DNA from: a virus | Length of the DNA: 20,277 nucleotides | Virus record (IMG/VR): IMGVR_UViG_3300006190_000024 | Span: 1 to 20,277 of that record | Reading direction: 5' to 3' (one strand) | In this document: positions 4,116 through 20,109 of the stretch, piece by piece | Position numbering within the stretch: the first letter of the stretch is position 1 | Layout of the letters: every line of letters starts with the position of its first letter | Notes under the pieces: model-generated | Databases searched by the model: none | Told to the model about the DNA's origin: nothing | The model's input: the letters and a program-made list of their open reading frames with translations, nothing else | Program-made: the position numbers and the translations under genes

Positions 4116-6119
4116 ATGGCTCGTTCCTCACTAGCCCTTAGCACCTTTACATCTGGCGAGATCTCCCCACGACTTGAGGGGCGCATAGATATTGAAAAGT
4201 ATCGCTCTGGGCTTTCAGATTTAACGAACATGGTCGTGCAACCTCACGGCGGCTTGACCCGTAGGCCAGGCACAGAATACTTGGGCGCGGTTAAAGATAG
4301 TTCTGTAAAAACACGGCTAATCCCGTTCCAGTTTAAAACCTCCGACACCTACATTTTGGAGTTCGGCCACCAGTACATGCGGGTTTTTCGCAATGGATTG
4401 CAGGTTTTACTAGGCTCTGCAAAAACCATTACTGCTGCAACCAAAGCAAACCCCGCCGTTATAACCAGCAATAGCCACGGATACAGCAATGGAGATGAGA
4501 TCTATCTAGCTGGTGTGGGTGGAATGACTGAGCTAAACGGTCGCAATTACATTGTAGCAAACGTATCGACAAATACTTACTCGCTAAAAGATCTGTTTGG
4601 CAACAACATAAACTCAACCAATTACACAACCTACACCTCTGGTGGGGCCACTGACGAGATATATGAAATAGCAACGCCATACGCTTCGGCTGATGTATTC
4701 AATTTACGGTTCGCCCAATCTGCTGATGTTATGTATTTCGCTCATCCAAGCTACGCAATCAGAACGCTTTCCCGCACTAATCACAATGCTTGGACGTTTG
4801 CGACTCCTACTATTAACGAAAATAGTACGCCGACTTTAACCAGTTCTAACAATTACCCTAGCGTTGTTACTTTCTTTGAACAGCGTTTAGTTTTTGCGGC
4901 AACGAACAATAACCCTCAAACCATTTGGTTTTCCAAGAATGCTGATTATTTAAATTTTACAACAGGAACTTCTGCCGACAACGCCCTGATCTACACCATT
5001 GCGTCCAATCAAGTAAACAGTATCCGCTACCTCTCAGCAACGCGGGTACTTACGATTGGCACCTCTGGCGGCGAATACGTTCTGACAACTACCAATAACG
5101 GCCCGATTACCCCAACAACTACGCAGATCCGCAAGTATTCAAACTACGGCTCGGCCAATATCGAGCCTGTGCAGGTTGCTGATGTGACGCTTTTCTTGCA
5201 GCGCGGCAACCGAAAGATCCGTGAGTTTAAGTATATTGGCGAGGTAGACACAGCCGGATACCAGGCACCAGATATTACCGTTCTTGCAGAGCATATCACT
5301 AAAGGCGGCGTTGAGGGCTTTGCTTACCAGCAAGAGCCTGAGAACATTGTCTGGTGTGTGCGCAGTGATGGCACCCTTCTGGGCCTAACGTATCGCCGCG
5401 AGGAGTCTGTGGTCGCCTGGCATAAGCATGTCATTGGTGGGGCATTTGGTAGTGGTCAAGCCATTGTTGAAAGCATTTCAACGCTTCCTACCGACACAGG
5501 CAACGATGAACTTTACATGATTGTTAAAAGAACAATTGACGGTCAGACAATGCGATACGTTGAGGTTATGAAAAACTTTGACTTTGGAAGCACCACAACT
5601 TCTGCATTCTTTGTTGATAGCGGTCTTTCTTATGCGGGTTCTGCTGTGTCTGGGTTCAGTGCGTTGTACCACCTAGAGGGCGATGATGTTTCGATCCTGG
5701 CTAACGGTGCAAGCCACCCTGATAAAACTGTATCTAACGGGGCAATCTCCTTGGACTTTTCCGCTACAAGCGCGGCAATTGGGTATGGCTACACATCAAG
5801 TATGCAGACGCTGCGCATAGAAAGCGGATCTCAAGATGGCATTTCTCAGGGCAAGCCTAAAAGAATTCACGGCATTACAATGCGTTTGTTTGAAACTGTT
5901 GGCGTCGAGATCGGGAATGATGCTGGCGAAATAGATCGTGTATTCTTTCGAGATAGCTCAATGGATATGGACGTTGCTGTGCCTTTATTCACCGGCGATA
6001 AAGATATTGAATTTCAAGGTGGGTTTGAGGACGATGATAGGATATACTTACAACAAACGCAGCCGCTCCCACTAACTGTGTTGGCGCTGTATCCACGCAT
6101 GAACACGTTCGACAAATGA
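4116..6119 (+). CDS. Tail tubular protein B / nozzle (T7 gp12-like) with FCCH-like insert
   Basis: A 667-residue tail nozzle protein that closes the tube below tail tube A. The N-terminus (FTSGEISPRLEGRIDIEKY, then a GGLTRRPGTEY motif and FQFKTSDTYILEFG) is diagnostic for gp12-like proteins. Residues about 102-185 are an inserted domain with an AATKANPAVIT start, HGYSNGDEIYL, GMTELNGRNY and a YTSGGA end; databases often label this pattern as an E1 FCCH-like domain in phage proteins, probably a surface beta-barrel here. The rest is beta-rich. The ribosome site GAGG is at 4106-4109, inside the preceding gene. The stop overlaps the next start as ATGA. Confidence 0.92.
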   Translation: MARSSLALSTFTSGEISPRLEGRIDIEKYRSGLSDLTNMVVQPHGGLTRRPGTEYLGAVKDSSVKTRLIPFQFKTSDTYILEFGHQYMRVFRNGLQVLLGSAKTITAATKANPAVITSNSHGYSNGDEIYLAGVGGMTELNGRNYIVANVSTNTYSLKDLFGNNINSTNYTTYTSGGATDEIYEIATPYASADVFNLRFAQSADVMYFAHPSYAIRTLSRTNHNAWTFATPTINENSTPTLTSSNNYPSVVTFFEQRLVFAATNNNPQTIWFSKNADYLNFTTGTSADNALIYTIASNQVNSIRYLSATRVLTIGTSGGEYVLTTTNNGPITPTTTQIRKYSNYGSANIEPVQVADVTLFLQRGNRKIREFKYIGEVDTAGYQAPDITVLAEHITKGGVEGFAYQQEPENIVWCVRSDGTLLGLTYRREESVVAWHKHVIGGAFGSGQAIVESISTLPTDTGNDELYMIVKRTIDGQTMRYVEVMKNFDFGSTTTSAFFVDSGLSYAGSAVSGFSALYHLEGDDVSILANGASHPDKTVSNGAISLDFSATSAAIGYGYTSSMQTLRIESGSQDGISQGKPKRIHGITMRLFETVGVEIGNDAGEIDRVFFRDSSMDMDVAVPLFTGDKDIEFQGGFEDDDRIYLQQTQPLPLTVLALYPRMNTFDK

Positions 6120-13897: not shown

Positions 13898-13956
13898 TGA
13901 CGCCACCCCTTAAAAGGTGTATTCTACGCACTAGGAAAGACAAGGACTTGCTATGA
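13897..13956 (+). CDS. Candidate 19-residue basic peptide bridging core and fibre genes
   Basis: The bases between the core gene and the fibre form one short open frame encoding MTPPLKRCILRTRKDKDLL. Its ATG overlaps the upstream TAA (TAATG), its TGA overlaps the fibre ATG (ATGA), and GGAGG at 13883-13887 stands 9 nt ahead of it. Overlap at both ends plus a good ribosome site suggest a translated mini-gene or a coupling leader for the fibre. Against it: the ribosome site lies in codons needed by the core protein, and such a short frame can arise by chance. Its function is unknown. Confidence 0.4.
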   Translation: MTPPLKRCILRTRKDKDLL

Positions 13957-16298
13957 CAGTATCATCGAGCACCAACCGAGCAAGCTATAGCGGCAATGGA
14001 ACGCTTACGACTTTTGCCTACGGTTTTAAGATCTTTGACCAGGATGAGTTGACAGTCATCCTTCGATCAAGCACCGGCGTCGAGACGGTTCAAACGCTTA
14101 CAACACACTATACTGTAACAGGTGTAGGTGCGGCAGGGGGCGGCAACGTAGTGTTCGGAAGTGCTCCTGCGTCTGGCGTTACCATTGTTATTTTGCGCGA
14201 GTTGGATCTTAAGCAAGGTTTGAACTTGGTTCCCAACGATCCCTTCCCAGCGGAATCGCTAGAAAGCAGCTTGGACAAGCTGACATTTATGGTGCAGCAG
14301 CATAACGAAGAGCTTGGCCGGACGATCAAGGCATCGCGAACAAACGTGCTTGCTGGCTCTGAGTTTACAATCCTAGCAGCGGATCGTGCCAATAAAGTAT
14401 TTTCTTTTGACGGATCTGGGGATCTGGCTATTACTCAAGAACTTGGCACTTTCAAAGGGAATTGGGCCGCTTCGACTGTTTACAAAGTTCGTGACCTGGT
14501 GAAGGACACCAGCACCAATAATATATTCATGGTAAAAACTGCGCATACTTCTAGCGGTTCTCAGCCAATCACCACCAACACGGATGCAGCGAAGTGGGAT
14601 CTGATTGTTAATGCAGCCGCAGCGACCACCAGCGCCACAGCAGCAGCCGCAAGCGAGACAGCCGCAGAGGCAGCAGAGGCAAACGCAGAGACTGCTCAAG
14701 CGGCTTCTGAGGCGGCGAGAGACGCAAGTGTTACTGCAAAGGATGCAAGCGTTGTTGCAAAGAACGCAAGCGTTGCCGCGAAAGATGAGAGCGTAACCGC
14801 TAAAAATTCTTCGGAATCTGCGCTCGCCAGCTTTACGGGTCAGTACGCCACAGGATCATCTGATCCTAGCAGCAATTTAAATACCGGCGATCTGTTTTTC
14901 AATTCGTCAACAAACCTGATGAAAGTTTACACCGGATCTGCCTGGGTAGCACTTACCCCCAGCAGCTCTGCCCAGACGAACATCAACGCACTTGCGGCTT
15001 CCGCCGTTATTGCCGACATGGCAATTTTAGGCACCGATGCTATCGTCGCTGACATGGCAATTTTAGGCACTGATGCCGTTGTTGCCGATATGGCGATACT
15101 GGCAACAGACGCAATTGTTGCAGATATGGCGATCCTCGGAACCGCTGATGTTGTTAATGACATGAATATCCTAGGTACTTCTGACGTTGTAACGGACATG
15201 AATGTTCTTGCCACTTCCGATGTCGTCACAGATATGAATGTTCTTGCCACCGCTGATGTAGTCAACGACATGAACGTGCTGGGTACTTCCGCAACCGTAA
15301 CTGCAATGAACCTTCTCGGCACCTCTGGCAATGTCACAGCGATGTCGAATGTTTCGGGAGCAATCTCCAACGTCAACACAGTTGCGGGAATAGCAAGCAA
15401 CGTTACGACTGTCGCTGGCGTCAGTTCTTCGGTGTCGGCCTTAGCAGCATCCGCAGTTCTTGCGGATATGGCGATCCTAGCGACAGACGCCATCGTTGCA
15501 GATATGGCTATCTTGGCTACTGATGCGATCGTTGCAGACATGGCGATTTTGGCAACCGACGCCATTGTTGCTGACCTAGCGATACTAGCCACAAGCGATG
15601 TCGTAACGGACATGAACGTGCTTGCCACTTCAGACGTAGTTAATGACATGAATGTGCTTGGCACTTCGGCGAATGTCACAGCAATGTCAAACGTGTCAGG
15701 CAGCATATCCAGCGTAAACACGGTGGCGAGCAACCTTGCTAGTGTAAACAGCTTTGCAAACACATACCGCATTGCGTCAAGCGCCCCAAGCTCTAGCTTG
15801 AACACTGGCGATTTGTACTTCAATACCTCAACAAATGTCGTCAATGTTTATAACGGAAGTGCCTGGGTTGCTGCTTATGCGTCCCTATCGGGCGCGCTCA
15901 CAGTCTCTAACAATCTTTCGGATCTAGCAAACGCAGGTACAGCCCGTACCAATTTAGGGCTTGGCAGTGCCGCGACCACGGCTTCAACGGCCTACGCTCC
16001 TGCTGCTGGTAGCTCCAATGTGGTCACGACAGGCGCTTTGAACAGCGGTTCAATAACATCTGGCTTTGGCACTATTGATATTGGTTCCTCTTCCTTTACA
16101 ACAACAGGAACAGTGAACTTTGGTAGCTTGGCAGATGGTACGATTACCGTGACAGCATTTGTCGATGAAGATAATATGTCAAGTGACAGTGCCACCCTAG
16201 TGCCGACACAACAATCGGTAAAAGCTTACGTAGACAGTTCTGTTGCTACTGCAGCCACAAAAGGCTTTGCTATCGCCGCAGCAATAGTATTTGGATAA
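13953..16298 (+). CDS. Tail fibre with T7 gp17-type N-terminus and 12-residue repeats
   Basis: A 781-residue fibre. Residues 1-150 match the T7 tail fibre N-terminal domain that binds the tail (FAYGFKIFDQDELTVIL, HYTVTGVG, VQQHNEELGR). Residues 220-290 are an Ala/Glu coiled coil ending in heptads. Residues 300-334 carry a TGDLFFNSST...YTGSAWV motif. Two blocks of 12-residue repeats follow (351-470 and 501-584), then a second TGDLYFNTST...YNGSAWV motif (607-641). The C-terminus has a segment common in marine phage fibres (SATLVPTQQSVKAYVDSSV). Ribosome site AAGGA is at 13942-13946. The role is host recognition; the receptor is unknown, and the final part may instead dock further fibre subunits. 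Confidence 0.9.
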   Translation: MTVSSSTNRASYSGNGTLTTFAYGFKIFDQDELTVILRSSTGVETVQTLTTHYTVTGVGAAGGGNVVFGSAPASGVTIVILRELDLKQGLNLVPNDPFPAESLESSLDKLTFMVQQHNEELGRTIKASRTNVLAGSEFTILAADRANKVFSFDGSGDLAITQELGTFKGNWAASTVYKVRDLVKDTSTNNIFMVKTAHTSSGSQPITTNTDAAKWDLIVNAAAATTSATAAAASETAAEAAEANAETAQAASEAARDASVTAKDASVVAKNASVAAKDESVTAKNSSESALASFTGQYATGSSDPSSNLNTGDLFFNSSTNLMKVYTGSAWVALTPSSSAQTNINALAASAVIADMAILGTDAIVADMAILGTDAVVADMAILATDAIVADMAILGTADVVNDMNILGTSDVVTDMNVLATSDVVTDMNVLATADVVNDMNVLGTSATVTAMNLLGTSGNVTAMSNVSGAISNVNTVAGIASNVTTVAGVSSSVSALAASAVLADMAILATDAIVADMAILATDAIVADMAILATDAIVADLAILATSDVVTDMNVLATSDVVNDMNVLGTSANVTAMSNVSGSISSVNTVASNLASVNSFANTYRIASSAPSSSLNTGDLYFNTSTNVVNVYNGSAWVAAYASLSGALTVSNNLSDLANAGTARTNLGLGSAATTASTAYAPAAGSSNVVTTGALNSGSITSGFGTIDIGSSSFTTTGTVNFGSLADGTITVTAFVDEDNMSSDSATLVPTQQSVKAYVDSSVATAATKGFAIAAAIVFG
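14724..14807 (+). repeat. Heptad repeat, four copies of ASVxAKD/N
   Basis: Four consecutive 7-residue units read ASVTAKD, ASVVAKN, ASVAAKD and ESVTAKN (fibre residues 258-285). The spacing of Val and Ala fits a trimeric coiled coil at the end of the fibre's helical stalk. Codons differ between units, so the DNA is less repetitive than the protein. Confidence 0.85.
15003..15362 (+). repeat. Fibre 12-residue (36-bp) repeat block 1, about 10 units
   Basis: Units such as AIVADMAILGTD and DVVTDMNVLATS follow one another without gaps from residue 351 to 458, and a degenerate tenth unit (GNVTAMSNVSGA) ends at 470. Hydrophobic residues recur at positions 2, 3, 6 and 9 of each unit. At DNA level the units use different synonymous codons, for example GCC/GCT/GCA for Ala and TTA/CTG/CTC/CTA/CTT for Leu. 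Confidence 0.92.
15453..15704 (+). repeat. Fibre 12-residue (36-bp) repeat block 2, about 7 units
   Basis: A second block (residues 501-584) repeats the plan of the first: units of the A-I-V-A-D-M type, then units of the D-V-V-T-D-M-N type, then the same closing unit (ANVTAMSNVSGS). The shared order shows that a whole block was duplicated, or that both blocks were built by the same rule. A 30-residue spacer separates them. Confidence 0.9.
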
Positions 16299-16310: not shown

Positions 16311-16673
16311 ATGACCGTAGTTAATCTCATCAACGTAGCAACTATTACACCAGTAGTTAATGCGGGTGCAGTAACAAACAGTAGAGCATCTATCATTGAT
16401 GTTGCTGCTGATAAAGTTGCGAAAGTAAACTCACTAATCATTGCAAATGTGGATGGCACTAATGCCGCAGACATCACAGTTGAAGTGAGTATAGATAATG
16501 GCTCAAGCTATGTTGCTATAGCAAAAACTATATCTGTGTCTACCGACTCATCTTTAATCGTAGTGGGTAAAGACAATGGTTTTTACTTAGATGAGACTGA
16601 CATCCTAGCGGTTACAGCTTCTGCCGCTGATGACCTGACTTACTTAGTTAGCTATGAATTGATGACAGACTAA
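16311..16673 (+). CDS. Beta-rich virion-associated protein of unknown function
   Basis: A 120-residue protein rich in Val, Ile, Thr and Ala with alternating hydrophobic patterns, suggesting a beta-sandwich: VNSLIIANVDGTNAADITVEV, then a Ser-Asn-Gly-rich turn, ISVSTDSSLIVV, FYLDETDILAVTASA, and a final YLVSYELMTD. Similar small proteins lie next to fibre genes in other phages, so a minor tail or fibre-docking role is plausible. I do not recognise a named family. AAGGAAAA (16298-16305) is the ribosome site. The stop TAA shares a base with the next gene's ATG, tying it to the paralogue that follows. Confidence 0.65.
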   Translation: MTVVNLINVATITPVVNAGAVTNSRASIIDVAADKVAKVNSLIIANVDGTNAADITVEVSIDNGSSYVAIAKTISVSTDSSLIVVGKDNGFYLDETDILAVTASAADDLTYLVSYELMTD

Positions 16674-18136
16674 TGAGGACCATAGGCACCACATCTGTAG
16701 ATGGTGAAGTACGGGCGGTTGCCTCCGGTGCGTTACCGAATGGTAAGCCTGTGATTGTTAATAGTGATGGGACTGTTAGTGTTGTTGGGGTTCAAAGCCA
16801 ATCAACAGCCGCAGGGACACCTGTTGACCCTGATGCGGGTACTGGTGGGCAAAATACTGGTTGCGTCTTTGACTCTAACTCGAACAAGGTTGTTGTTGTT
16901 TTTAGGGACACAACAAATTCAGGTTATGGTACGGCAAGAGTAGGAACAGTTGACCCTTCAAACAACTCGATTAGCTTCGGCAGTAAAGCTGTTTTTAACT
17001 CAGGAAACTCTACCCAATTTGCTACCGCCTTTGACTCTAACTCGAACAAGGTTGTTATATCTTACGAAGATGGTGGAAATTCTTCTCAAGGGACTGCCGT
17101 TGTCGGAACGGTTAGTGGCACAGACATCAGTTTTGGGTCAGAAGATGTATTTGAGGCAGGTACTCCAAACGCTCAAAGGATGACCTTTGACAGTAGTAAC
17201 AATAAGGTTGTTATAGCTTACGCAGATGGAGGTAACTCAAACAAAGGAAAGGCGGTGGTCGGAACCGTCAGTGATACTAGCATATCCTTTGGAACCCCAG
17301 TGCAATTCGAGTCGGGTCAATGTAACAACATAGCCATAACTTTTGACAGCAACTCAAACAAGGTTGTTATAGCATTTGCCGACCTAGATAATTCCTTTTA
17401 CGGGAAGTCTGTAGTTGGAACGGTTAGCGGGACCGCAATTAGCTTTGGCAATTTGGTTACATTTAACAGTGCTAGAAGTACATTTATGAGTGCTGCATTT
17501 GATACCACCGCTAACAAAGTAGTAATAACATATAGCGATGGAGGAAATTCTTATCATGGTAGTGCCATTGTCGGAACGGTCAGCGGCACAAACATAAGTT
17601 ATGGTTCTGAAGCTGTGTTTTATGCAGGTTCTGCCAACTATACTGCTACTAATTTTGATAGCGGCACTGGCAATATCGTAATATCCTATCAAGACGCTGC
17701 AAACTCTTATCGTGGTACTGTTGTAACTGGTACAGTTTCAGGAACGGGGATTGGCAGTTTTGGCACTGCTGTTGTGTTTGAAGCAACCGTATTAGAACAC
17801 ATGTTTACAACTTTCGACAGCACTTCAAACAGAGTCATAAATACATATGCTGATAATGGCGATGGAGATAAAGCAAAGGTTGTGGTAATCCGAGGACAGG
17901 GTTCTGTACCAAACCTCACCTCCGAGAACTACATCGGCATCTCTAAAGGCGTTGCTTCGGATGGCGGCACGGCGAGAGTGCAGATTGGCAGCGCAATTAA
18001 CGGTGCGCAATCCAGCCTCACAGCAGGCCAGCAATATTTTGTACAAACAGACGGGACTATAGGCTTAACCGCTGATGACCCATCTGTACTTGCTGGGACT
18101 GCCGTTTCAGCCACCGACATCATTGTGAAAGGATAA
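16673..18136 (+). CDS. Seven-repeat propeller-like protein, paralogue 1
   Basis: A 487-residue protein of three parts. The N-cap (1-44) starts MRTIG and contains ASGALPNGKPVIVNSDGTVSV. Residues about 60-412 hold seven repeats of about 50 residues, each with a FDSNSNKVVIAY-like strand pair, a G-N-S turn, VVGTVSGT, SISFG and an F-x-S/A-G end; the seventh is shorter. The C-cap (415-487) holds ENYIGISKG, SSLTAGQQYFVQTDGTIGLTADD and a G-T-A-V-S-A-T end. Seven copies suggest a seven-bladed beta-propeller. Position after the fibre suggests a receptor-binding or accessory fibre protein; the function is inference. The ATG overlaps the previous stop with only a weak ribosome site. Confidence 0.75.
   Translation: MRTIGTTSVDGEVRAVASGALPNGKPVIVNSDGTVSVVGVQSQSTAAGTPVDPDAGTGGQNTGCVFDSNSNKVVVVFRDTTNSGYGTARVGTVDPSNNSISFGSKAVFNSGNSTQFATAFDSNSNKVVISYEDGGNSSQGTAVVGTVSGTDISFGSEDVFEAGTPNAQRMTFDSSNNKVVIAYADGGNSNKGKAVVGTVSDTSISFGTPVQFESGQCNNIAITFDSNSNKVVIAFADLDNSFYGKSVVGTVSGTAISFGNLVTFNSARSTFMSAAFDTTANKVVITYSDGGNSYHGSAIVGTVSGTNISYGSEAVFYAGSANYTATNFDSGTGNIVISYQDAANSYRGTVVTGTVSGTGIGSFGTAVVFEATVLEHMFTTFDSTSNRVINTYADNGDGDKAKVVVIRGQGSVPNLTSENYIGISKGVASDGGTARVQIGSAINGAQSSLTAGQQYFVQTDGTIGLTADDPSVLAGTAVSATDIIVKG
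16867..17056 (+). repeat. 28-nt perfect direct repeat in propeller blades 1 and 2
   Basis: The same 28 bases occur at 16867-16894 and 17029-17056, 162 nt (54 codons) apart, encoding FDSNSNKVV at equivalent places of two neighbouring repeats. Blade 4 (about 17342-17369) has a close variant. The identity suggests recent unequal exchange or gene conversion between blades. Confidence 0.85.
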
Positions 18137-18414: not shown

Positions 18415-18627
18415 ATGCGCACCATTGGTAATCCCAGCCCTACTGCACGGAAGCTGAACGCCATTGCCAGTGGTGTGCAAGGCGAGGTAAACGACAGGCA
18501 GGCATGTTTAACCGCTGGCCAGAGCCACTTTGTGCAGACGGGTGGTGCGCTAACCACAACCTCTGGAAATCCGAGTGTCTTCGCTGGCACAGCCATATCG
18601 GCAACAAATATTATCGTGAAAGGCTAG
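18415..18627 (+). CDS. Mini-paralogue: N-cap start joined to C-cap, no propeller
   Basis: A 70-residue protein that begins MRTIG, keeps an IASG motif at about residues 17-20 like the ASG of the N-caps of its large neighbours, then passes directly to the C-cap pattern (LTAGQSHFVQTGGALTTTSG, then PSVFAGTAISATNIIVKG). The seven-repeat centre and the front half of the C-cap are absent. The frame is intact, codons are diverged from both paralogues, and GGGGAG (18402-18407) is a good ribosome site. This argues for a functional small gene rather than a fresh deletion relic. It may be a minimal fibre-tip or adaptor unit. Function unknown. Confidence 0.7.
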   Translation: MRTIGNPSPTARKLNAIASGVQGEVNDRQACLTAGQSHFVQTGGALTTTSGNPSVFAGTAISATNIIVKG

Positions 18628-18630
18628 AGC

Positions 18631-20109
18631 ATGAGAACTATCCCAGAGTTTAAAAAGGGTACGCATAGGGCCAAGGCTTCTGGTGCGTTACCGAATGGTA
18701 AGGCTGTTGTGGTTAATGCTGACGGGACTGTGAGTGTTATTTCGGAAACAAGTGCAAGTGCGAGCGTTGGTTCTTCAGCAGTTTTAGATGTTGCTTGCGA
18801 GGGTAATAACAATGCAGTTTACGATGTTGCTAACAACAAAACTGTGTTTTTTTACAGGGGAGCTTCCAATGCGGGTAAATGCGTTGTCGGAACAGTAGCA
18901 TCAAACAATACTGTAAGTTTTGGCTCTGTTGTTACTTTTGAAGATGGTAGCGTTGATAGTTCTGTATCCGCTGTTTACCATGCAGCGGCAGGTAAAATTG
19001 TTGTTGTTTTCAGGGACGCCGGAAATTCGGGTTACTCTAAAGCTAGGGTCGGAACCGTCAGTGGAACCTCAATTTCCTTCGGAACGGTAGTCACGTTTTA
19101 TAACGGAGGTTCTTCACAAAAACAAAGTGCAGTTTATAGCAGTGGTTCTGAAAAAATTGTTGTTGCCTACACTAATAATTCTACCGCCGATGGGTTTTCT
19201 AAGGTTGGTACGGTGAGCGGAACAGACATCAGTTTTGGAAACCAAGCAACTTTTGAATCAGGAGAAGTCGGTGGGAATGAAATTGGTATGTCCTATGATA
19301 GCAATGCTGACAGGGTTGTTTTTAGCTACCGAGATCAAAACAATTCTGGATATGGTACTGCTATAGTGGGAGCAATAAGTGGGACAAATATCTCATTTGG
19401 AAGCAAGGTTGTTTTTAAAAGCGCCACTACCTATGGTCATAGTTCGGTGTATGACCCAGTAGCAACGAAAGTTTTATTGTCGTATCGGGGTAGTGGTATA
19501 GAGGCTATAGTGGGAACTATAGACCCTTCAGACAACTCAATTTCTTTCGGCTCATCGGTTACTGTAAAAAGTGATGGGGTAGAAACTGCATCGACCTTAT
19601 ACGACGCTAACGCTAAATTCGTAGTTGCTGTTTATGGTTACGCTACTAATGACTCAAAAGTTGCACTGAAAAATGGAACTATAAGCGGAACTTCTGTGTC
19701 TTTTGGCTCAGAAATAATGTTAGACAATACAAGCGGTAATTCTACTACAATAGCTAATGGACCAAAAGGCTCTGCTTATGATAGTTCTTTAGGTAAAATT
19801 GTAAGTTCATATACCACTAACCCAAACGGCGATGGCCCAGTGGGAAAGTACGTTGTGAGTCAAAACGCCTTCACCGCCACCAACCTCACCGCAGAGAACT
19901 ACATCGGCATATCCAAAGGCGGTGCATACGCATCAGGCTCAAGTGCAACGGTAGACATTATCGGCTCGGTTAGTGAGAACCAATCCAGTCTAACGGCAGG
20001 CCAGAGCTACTTCGTTCAGACAGACGGGACGATAGGATTAACGGCTGATGATCCAAGCGTCTTTGCAGGTACGGCAATATCTGCTACAAGACTTATAGTT
20101 AAAACATAG
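18631..20109 (+). CDS. Seven-repeat propeller-like protein, paralogue 2
   Basis: A 492-residue protein with the same plan as paralogue 1. N-cap: MRTIPEFKKG, then ASGALPNGKAVVVNADGTVSV. Centre (about 57-415): seven repeats with the pattern VYD/YDS...KIVVAY, VGTVSGT, SISFG and F-x-S/D-G, more diverged from one another than in paralogue 1. C-cap (419-492): ENYIGISKG, SSLTAGQSYFVQTDGTIGLTADD, then AGTAISATRLIVKT. AAGG at 18620-18623 is the ribosome site. The two centres differ in sequence while the caps are conserved, as expected if caps mediate assembly and the propeller meets a variable target. That functional reading is inference. Confidence 0.75.
   Translation: MRTIPEFKKGTHRAKASGALPNGKAVVVNADGTVSVISETSASASVGSSAVLDVACEGNNNAVYDVANNKTVFFYRGASNAGKCVVGTVASNNTVSFGSVVTFEDGSVDSSVSAVYHAAAGKIVVVFRDAGNSGYSKARVGTVSGTSISFGTVVTFYNGGSSQKQSAVYSSGSEKIVVAYTNNSTADGFSKVGTVSGTDISFGNQATFESGEVGGNEIGMSYDSNADRVVFSYRDQNNSGYGTAIVGAISGTNISFGSKVVFKSATTYGHSSVYDPVATKVLLSYRGSGIEAIVGTIDPSDNSISFGSSVTVKSDGVETASTLYDANAKFVVAVYGYATNDSKVALKNGTISGTSVSFGSEIMLDNTSGNSTTIANGPKGSAYDSSLGKIVSSYTTNPNGDGPVGKYVVSQNAFTATNLTAENYIGISKGGAYASGSSATVDIIGSVSENQSSLTAGQSYFVQTDGTIGLTADDPSVFAGTAISATRLIVKT

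Follow-up and report, generated by a model that had tools for sequence, protein, structure and literature searches.

A virus record of 20,277 bases (the window, meaning the whole stretch of DNA analysed here) encodes a fibre with a row of 12-residue repeats, and neighbouring repeats are written in different synonymous codons. The locus raises the question of whether the codons differ through selection against DNA repetitiveness or through an old expansion of the array followed by drift at silent sites. We favour the second answer: with a probability of about 0.88, the block is an old, position-specific podovirus fibre stalk under ordinary purifying selection, whose silent sites have drifted to saturation.

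The fibre gene and its repeat units

Both the N-terminal domain and the position of the gene identify the protein as a podovirus tail fibre of the phrog_1640/phrog_13893 type. Residues 1-124 match the phrog_1640 tail protein (E=6.9e-37), and phrog_13893 also covers the N-terminus in the PHROGs search. Residues 1-129 match the N-terminus of tailspike Dpo31 (28lx, 8ck1) with an E value of 4e-15 by phmmer, and this domain is probably the virion-attachment part. The gene lies directly after that of a large internal virion protein, in which 11414-13897 matches the virion structural protein phrog_684. The same order is found in Skadi-10, Skadi-4, Greip and HTVC024P, Pelagibacter phages whose fibres also have an N-terminal part like that of the window.

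Table 1. Features of the fibre gene, in window coordinates.
Feature	Coordinates	Strand	Description or basis
Tail fibre gene	13953..16298	+	781 aa; ORF; phrog_1640 and phrog_13893 at the N-terminus; matches to putative tail fibers of Pelagibacter phages
N-terminal domain, podovirus tail fibre/tailspike type, residues 1-129	13953..14339	+	PHROGs; phmmer
Small beta module, upstream	14844..14951	+	Sequence; predicted strands at fragment residues 10-45 (AlphaFold)
Repeat block 1, 10 units x 12 residues	14997..15356	+	Sequence
Spacer between blocks, 30 residues, 90 bases	15357..15446	+	Predicted helical
Repeat block 2, 7 units x 12 residues	15447..15698	+	Sequence
Small beta module, downstream	15765..15878	+	Low-Z structural matches; lead only
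Fibre C-terminal part	15879..16298	+	16004-16298 and the next gene match L049, L050, L052, L053 and L054 at 82-84% DNA identity

The best named matches in a phage collection were Skadi-group Pelagibacter phages, at approximately 53-54% identity in three pieces that together cover 69% of the query. At the DNA level, matches to the fibre gene were only partial among the best 80 loci of the first IMG/VR scan. L002 and L006 showed 78% identity along a stretch of some 1,260-1,270 bases that opens the gene and reaches into block 1, and L005 showed 80% over 815 bases; the match to L049-L054 consists of the last 300 bases of the gene together with the next gene. LED_rpt (PF20854) was the only Pfam family matching the fibre at E<=0.01 (residues 347-454, E=2e-8), and with 34.6 bits against a curated cut-off of 59 the fibre does not qualify as a member. 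The T7 tail fibre N-terminus (PF03906, the accession given in the available part of PMC3909814) was absent from the Pfam matches at this threshold. The same part of that source describes the repeat patterns after the N-terminus as specific to each tail fibre. The two small beta modules have in common the motif NTGDL.FN.STN....Y.GSAWVA.

Elsewhere in the window, 16673-18136 and 18631-20109 encode paralogous proteins of 487 and 492 aa that are 42% identical. Between them lies a 70-aa ORF (18415-18627) that corresponds mainly to the C-terminal end shared by both (44-64% identity) and opens with residues similar to those with which both proteins begin. In the tail protein at 4116-6119 (phrog_376), residues 115-180 match Pfam E1_FCCH above the cut-off (36.5 bits vs 29.5).

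The original prediction placed about 17 units of 12 residues at 15003-15704. We found 17 ungapped units, each of exactly 12 residues, in two blocks separated by a spacer, so that the array is not continuous, and TRF independently detected a 36-bp period with a 75-78% match. The description of the units as near-perfect and almost identical as protein was overstated, mean amino acid identity being 54% over the 136 pairs and 70% between neighbours. Near-identity was confined to pairs of the same class, which agree at 10 or more of their 12 residues (26 pairs, mean pN 0.065). The classes recur in order along the window array, with xDAIVADMAIL[GA] followed by TSDVVTDMNVLA, then T[AS]DVVNDMNVLG, then TSANVTAMSNVS, and similar.

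Relatives were collected in four IMG/VR scans by taking the best 80 loci of at least 596, 374, at least 594 and 219 confirmed relatives, respectively; the locus scan may omit records very near the window. Together with the window, the 308 loci made up 309 records, which yielded 189 fibre ORFs with at least 3 units, which were collapsed by identical array plus flank to 121 distinct ORFs of 3 to 36 units. Pairs and clusters of these relatives are not fully independent. A scan of one bacterial genome collection gave a sole match, L318, a contig of Ascidiaceihabitans sp. isolate AH-135-O06. As it holds a related fibre and also an internal virion protein (30% identity), it is probably a phage or prophage contig.

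A 12-residue consensus was common to 442 distinct units, with T at position 1 (0.75), S or A at position 2 (0.51 and 0.29), V, N or I at position 4 (0.42, 0.26 and 0.18), L at position 11 (0.79) and A or G at position 12 (0.94). Unit spacing was 12 in 1133 of 1192 successive pairs from the 121 ORFs, a count to be read with the ungapped detection, which makes runs 12 by construction. The rare other spacings include 22, 32 and 42, which exceed 12 by multiples of 10, and a second repeat of approximately 10 residues (V.TVAGISSN type) replaces or accompanies the 12-residue one in the related fibres L312, L313, L315 and L316. By the same scoring, Skadi-4 and Skadi-10 have 8 of the 12-residue units each, Greip has 1, and HTVC024P and HTVC120P have none; other short repeats occur there. 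We found no description of the 12-residue stalk repeat in the available parts of a literature search of limited extent.

The order of classes was also conserved. Among 80 distinct class strings of at least 5 units, 62 start with class a (15.8±3.3 when shuffled) and 58 end with class T (17.5±3.6 when shuffled). Since these classes recur at the start and the end far above the shuffled level, the units of an array are not interchangeable.

Silent sites within and between arrays

As the original prediction stated, neighbouring units in the window differ at most silent sites, only 37 of 113 matched codons (32.7%) being identical. Expected values were obtained from draws on the codon usage of the window ORFs outside the array, giving 32.9±4.5% for neighbours. 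Over all pairs, 30.7% of codons at matched residues were identical (n=763) compared with 32.0±2.3% expected. The amount of variation is thus that of random synonymous draws, and nothing in it calls for codons that were deliberately varied. Nei-Gojobori pS between window units was 0.782, compared with 0.782±0.022 after random synonymous redraw, and 79 of the 136 unit pairs were at or beyond the Jukes-Cantor limit. In the 26 same-class pairs, pS was 0.806 vs 0.820±0.042 for the redraw. The silent sites between window units are saturated, neither less nor more, and synonymous distances are not at the low level of a recent expansion. This saturation rules out recent expansion as the main story for the window array, though units 0 and 1 share 20 bases (P=0.06). 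An assembly artefact inside the array was judged unlikely, since this 20-base match is the longest exact repeat in the fibre gene.

Under selection against DNA repetitiveness, silent differences between neighbours would be maintained because identical copies of 36 bp are lost through recombination or slippage. Neighbours in the window were not more different than non-neighbours (0.327 vs 0.303 identical codons), than permuted codons or than the draws. We then pooled the 69 non-redundant runs kept of 121 runs with at least 4 units. Neighbouring units had 1965 of 4487 codons identical (0.438), compared with 0.411±0.006 after permutation within the run (z=+4.3), an excess in the direction opposite to avoidance; z exceeded 1.64 in 12 single runs and was below -1.64 in one. 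The longest exact repeats were not shortened either, with a mean of 16.1 bases vs 14.9 after permutation, and were significantly longer in 6 runs and shorter in 1. Two observations lean the other way. Pooled all-pairs silent identity was slightly below the value drawn from the codon usage of the respective fibre outside its array (0.413 vs 0.429, sd 0.0054), and codon homozygosity was 0.012 lower in the array than outside (p=0.069, paired test), its usage being marginally more even. This weak all-pairs deficit is a hint that comes without the neighbour pattern that avoidance predicts. We therefore reject selection against repetitiveness on the basis of neighbour permutation, synonymous redraw, longest exact repeat and codon evenness; the weak all-pairs deficit remains, and the explanation, largely refuted, now appears very improbable.

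A few arrays carry recent-looking repeats (L044, with z=+4.4 and a 32-base exact repeat; L059, with a 38-base exact repeat), indicating that array expansion was not always old. These arrays also bear on independent convergence, in which the fold demands the likeness, the units are not duplicates and their silent sites were never alike. The window array does hold no measurable silent-site trace of common origin. Nevertheless, the 12-residue consensus over 442 units and the clear recent duplicates in L044 and L059 indicate that duplication makes such units, and convergence has very little to recommend it as the origin of the array.

Inheritance by position, copy number and exchange

We compared units at the same position in different phages, using pairs with the same run structure, a choice that favours stable arrays. 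Same-position silent identity was 0.94 vs 0.97 for the N-part where nucleotide identity of the N-part was 0.97 or more (16 pairs), 0.88 vs 0.87 in the band 0.90-0.97 (21 pairs), 0.75 vs 0.78 at 0.85-0.90 (22 pairs), 0.61 vs 0.69 at 0.80-0.85 (8 pairs), 0.68 vs 0.65 at 0.75-0.80 (21 pairs) and 0.53 vs 0.62 at 0.70-0.75. Silent identity of units within one array was 0.41-0.46 in all bands, near the random level. As same-position identity tracks the N-part while within-array identity stays near random, most units diverged from one another before the present lineages split, and arrays do not generally homogenise. Concerted evolution does not describe these data, within-array identity being 0.42-0.45 vs 0.61-0.94 for the same position in same-structure pairs of at least 75% N-part identity. 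The arrays are ordered and conserved by position in same-structure pairs of at least 70% N-part identity; below 70%, same-position units were no more alike than non-matching units, and the description fails.

Old expansion followed by silent-site drift, one of the alternatives first put forward, was thus upheld by the saturated pS and by same-position units that surpass within-array units at 70% N-part identity or more. The accompanying idea of purifying selection on the protein was supported in 51 same-structure pairs of 80-97% N-part identity, with a median dN/dS of 0.16 for the array vs 0.195 for the N-part. In the same pairs, the ratio of array dS to N-part dS had a median of 1.01 (interquartile range, 0.60-1.77).

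This pattern resembles that of the BACON repeats of crAssphage cluster 1, described in the available part of PMC6949934 as a tail-associated tandem array in which each position has a clade of its own and domain order is conserved. The likeness is one of expansion followed by position-by-position inheritance. It concerns the pattern of inheritance, the crAssphage array being made of whole BACON domains and that of the window of 12-residue stalk units.

Frequent changes in copy number among close relatives would speak against this history, and unit number came out stable. Pairs were drawn from the 97 of 121 ORFs that were complete enough. Unit counts were equal in 16 of 18 pairs at 97% N-part identity or more, in 43 of 74 at 85-97%, in 8 of 24 at 80-85%, and in 22 of 119 at 75-80%; below 75%, the share of equal counts was 5-12% depending on the band. 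The two discordant pairs in the first band (L107 vs L108 and L113) both trace to a single terminal 12-mer that scores 8.7 against a threshold of 12. Clusters at 97% were uniform in unit number in 9 of 10 cases as scored, and in 10 of 10 after correction of this detection artefact; 9 of 15 clusters at 90% were uniform, the same artefact being counted among the 6 others. With agreement in only 43 of 74 pairs at 85-97%, unit number does vary as relatives become more distant. In the discordant pairs for which units were aligned one by one (L088/L091, L101/L125 and L139/L155), the differences look like multi-unit replacements or indels. A low rate of array change fits with units that are not interchangeable.

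The array may also have been assembled by recombination between the fibre genes of different phages, its neighbours then differing by lineage. Units 0-3 of the window resemble units 1-4 of L002 and L006 (silent identity 0.50, nucleotide identity 0.81, with approximately 0.31 expected), and unit 9 resembles their unit 7 (silent identity 8 of 10). Units 4-8 are nearest units 2-6 of L003 and L008 (silent 0.48 and 0.43, nucleotide 0.81), compared with a silent identity of only 0.35-0.41 to five other relatives. The breakpoint is uncertain, however, as units 4-5 also fit L002 (silent 0.56). For block 2, no recent donor was seen among L002 and L006, silent identity (0.29 and 0.28) being at the random level. 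Among the relatives, L088 and L091 differ in arrangement in part of the array, and array dS was far from N-part dS in L104/L114 (0.05 vs 0.37) and L032/L037 (0.50 vs 0.12), which suggests exchange or rearrangement of the array between phages in these two pairs. Because array dS departs this far from N-part dS in some relatives, as the interquartile range of their ratio also indicates, arrays have been swapped or rearranged between phages, and the affinities of the window units make exchange likely in the history of its own array. Even so, saturation explains the differences between neighbours without a donor, and pairs with the same run structure do, on average, show orthology between same-position units. 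We regard assembly by recombination as possible, though on the unlikely side, and as compatible with the old, position-specific stalk.

Structure of the stalk and significance

In an AlphaFold2 monomer model of the window stretch (mean pLDDT 82.7, with a low pTM of 0.29), most helices had 10 residues, with breaks of 1-2 residues at 14 of 15 unit boundaries. The unbroken boundary, between units 2 and 3, is in a low-confidence part (pLDDT approximately 65). The monomer model of a second fibre family (mean pLDDT 75.7, pTM again low at 0.25) had helix breaks at all 13 boundaries, preceded by repeats of approximately 10 residues that were predicted as one long helix. No strand was assigned at the helix breaks in either family. 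Such breaks are expected, because a strict 12-residue period lies outside the range of continuous coiled coils, given as 4.0 or 3.0 residues per turn in the part of Hartmann et al. 2016 (PMC4786415) available to us. The models would be consistent with a trimeric spacer rod.

A search of solved structures with the array profile A1 retrieved no relative by sequence at E<=1. A Foldseek search of the PDB with the window fragment model returned 41 matches, none at E<=0.001 (best, 0.94), and VIA-align of the Foldseek matches aligned 54 chains, none with Z>=5. The top row was 7z4b_EA of phage SU10 (Z 4.1, fragment residues 157-213), and 19 of 22 rows cover the downstream beta module. That module matched collagen XV/XVIII trimerisation domains, as well as other trimeric proteins such as Mtd and tailspike TSP3, at Z 2.7-3.8 over 36-43 residues; at this level, Z may reflect only a common arrangement. 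The BFVD search gave 42 matches at E<=0.001, many of which carry a tail fibre name. Among the matches listed, the TM-score normalised to the query did not exceed 0.32 and was mostly 0.2 or lower. As these scores are so low, the matches show a common sequence pattern more than a fold.

The alpha/beta coiled coils of Hartmann et al. are alike in that a helical fibre is broken at regular intervals, and many beta-layers of trimeric phage fibres are listed in the part of their paper we consulted. The beta-layer consensus given there, [aliphatic]-A-T-K-[polar]-[DE], resembles the L-[AG]-T found here in its first three positions. Its K and [DE] are not kept, S or A standing at the first and V, N or I at the other, and units of the window type are spaced by 12 instead of the 9 or 6 of the nonads and hexads described. 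A tentative and rather doubtful extension is that the stalk forms a trimeric alpha/beta coiled coil of a new 12-residue period. Each unit would be a short helix ending in a beta-layer at L-[AG]-T, and the adjoining 10-residue repeats of related fibres would form a continuous coiled coil. If so, the classes, in their order, would serve as structural addresses on the rod.

Taken together, the block is most likely the tail fibre stalk of a podovirus, of a kind found in marine Pelagibacter phages, built of two runs of the 12-residue unit. Duplication, probably together with exchange of some units among phages, most likely produced its units well before today's lineages separated. From then on, array positions were mostly inherited as separate lineages, their residue classes kept by ordinary purifying selection while the silent sites drifted to saturation, so that the codon variation most likely reflects age and not design. 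Judging from the models, each unit may be a helix of approximately 10 residues broken near the conserved [GA]-T, and these helices may stack into a segmented, presumably trimeric rod that would space the receptor-binding end from the virion.

A tempting adaptive story is thereby removed, as strong protein repetition with scrambled codons needs only age and not selection on the DNA. The silent sites are ordinary, and the more interesting question is the structural one, posed by a recurrent 12-residue stalk unit that stands apart in sequence from the solved structures in the profile search. For marine phages, the array provides a case in which fibre repeat units are inherited largely by position instead of expanding and contracting freely.
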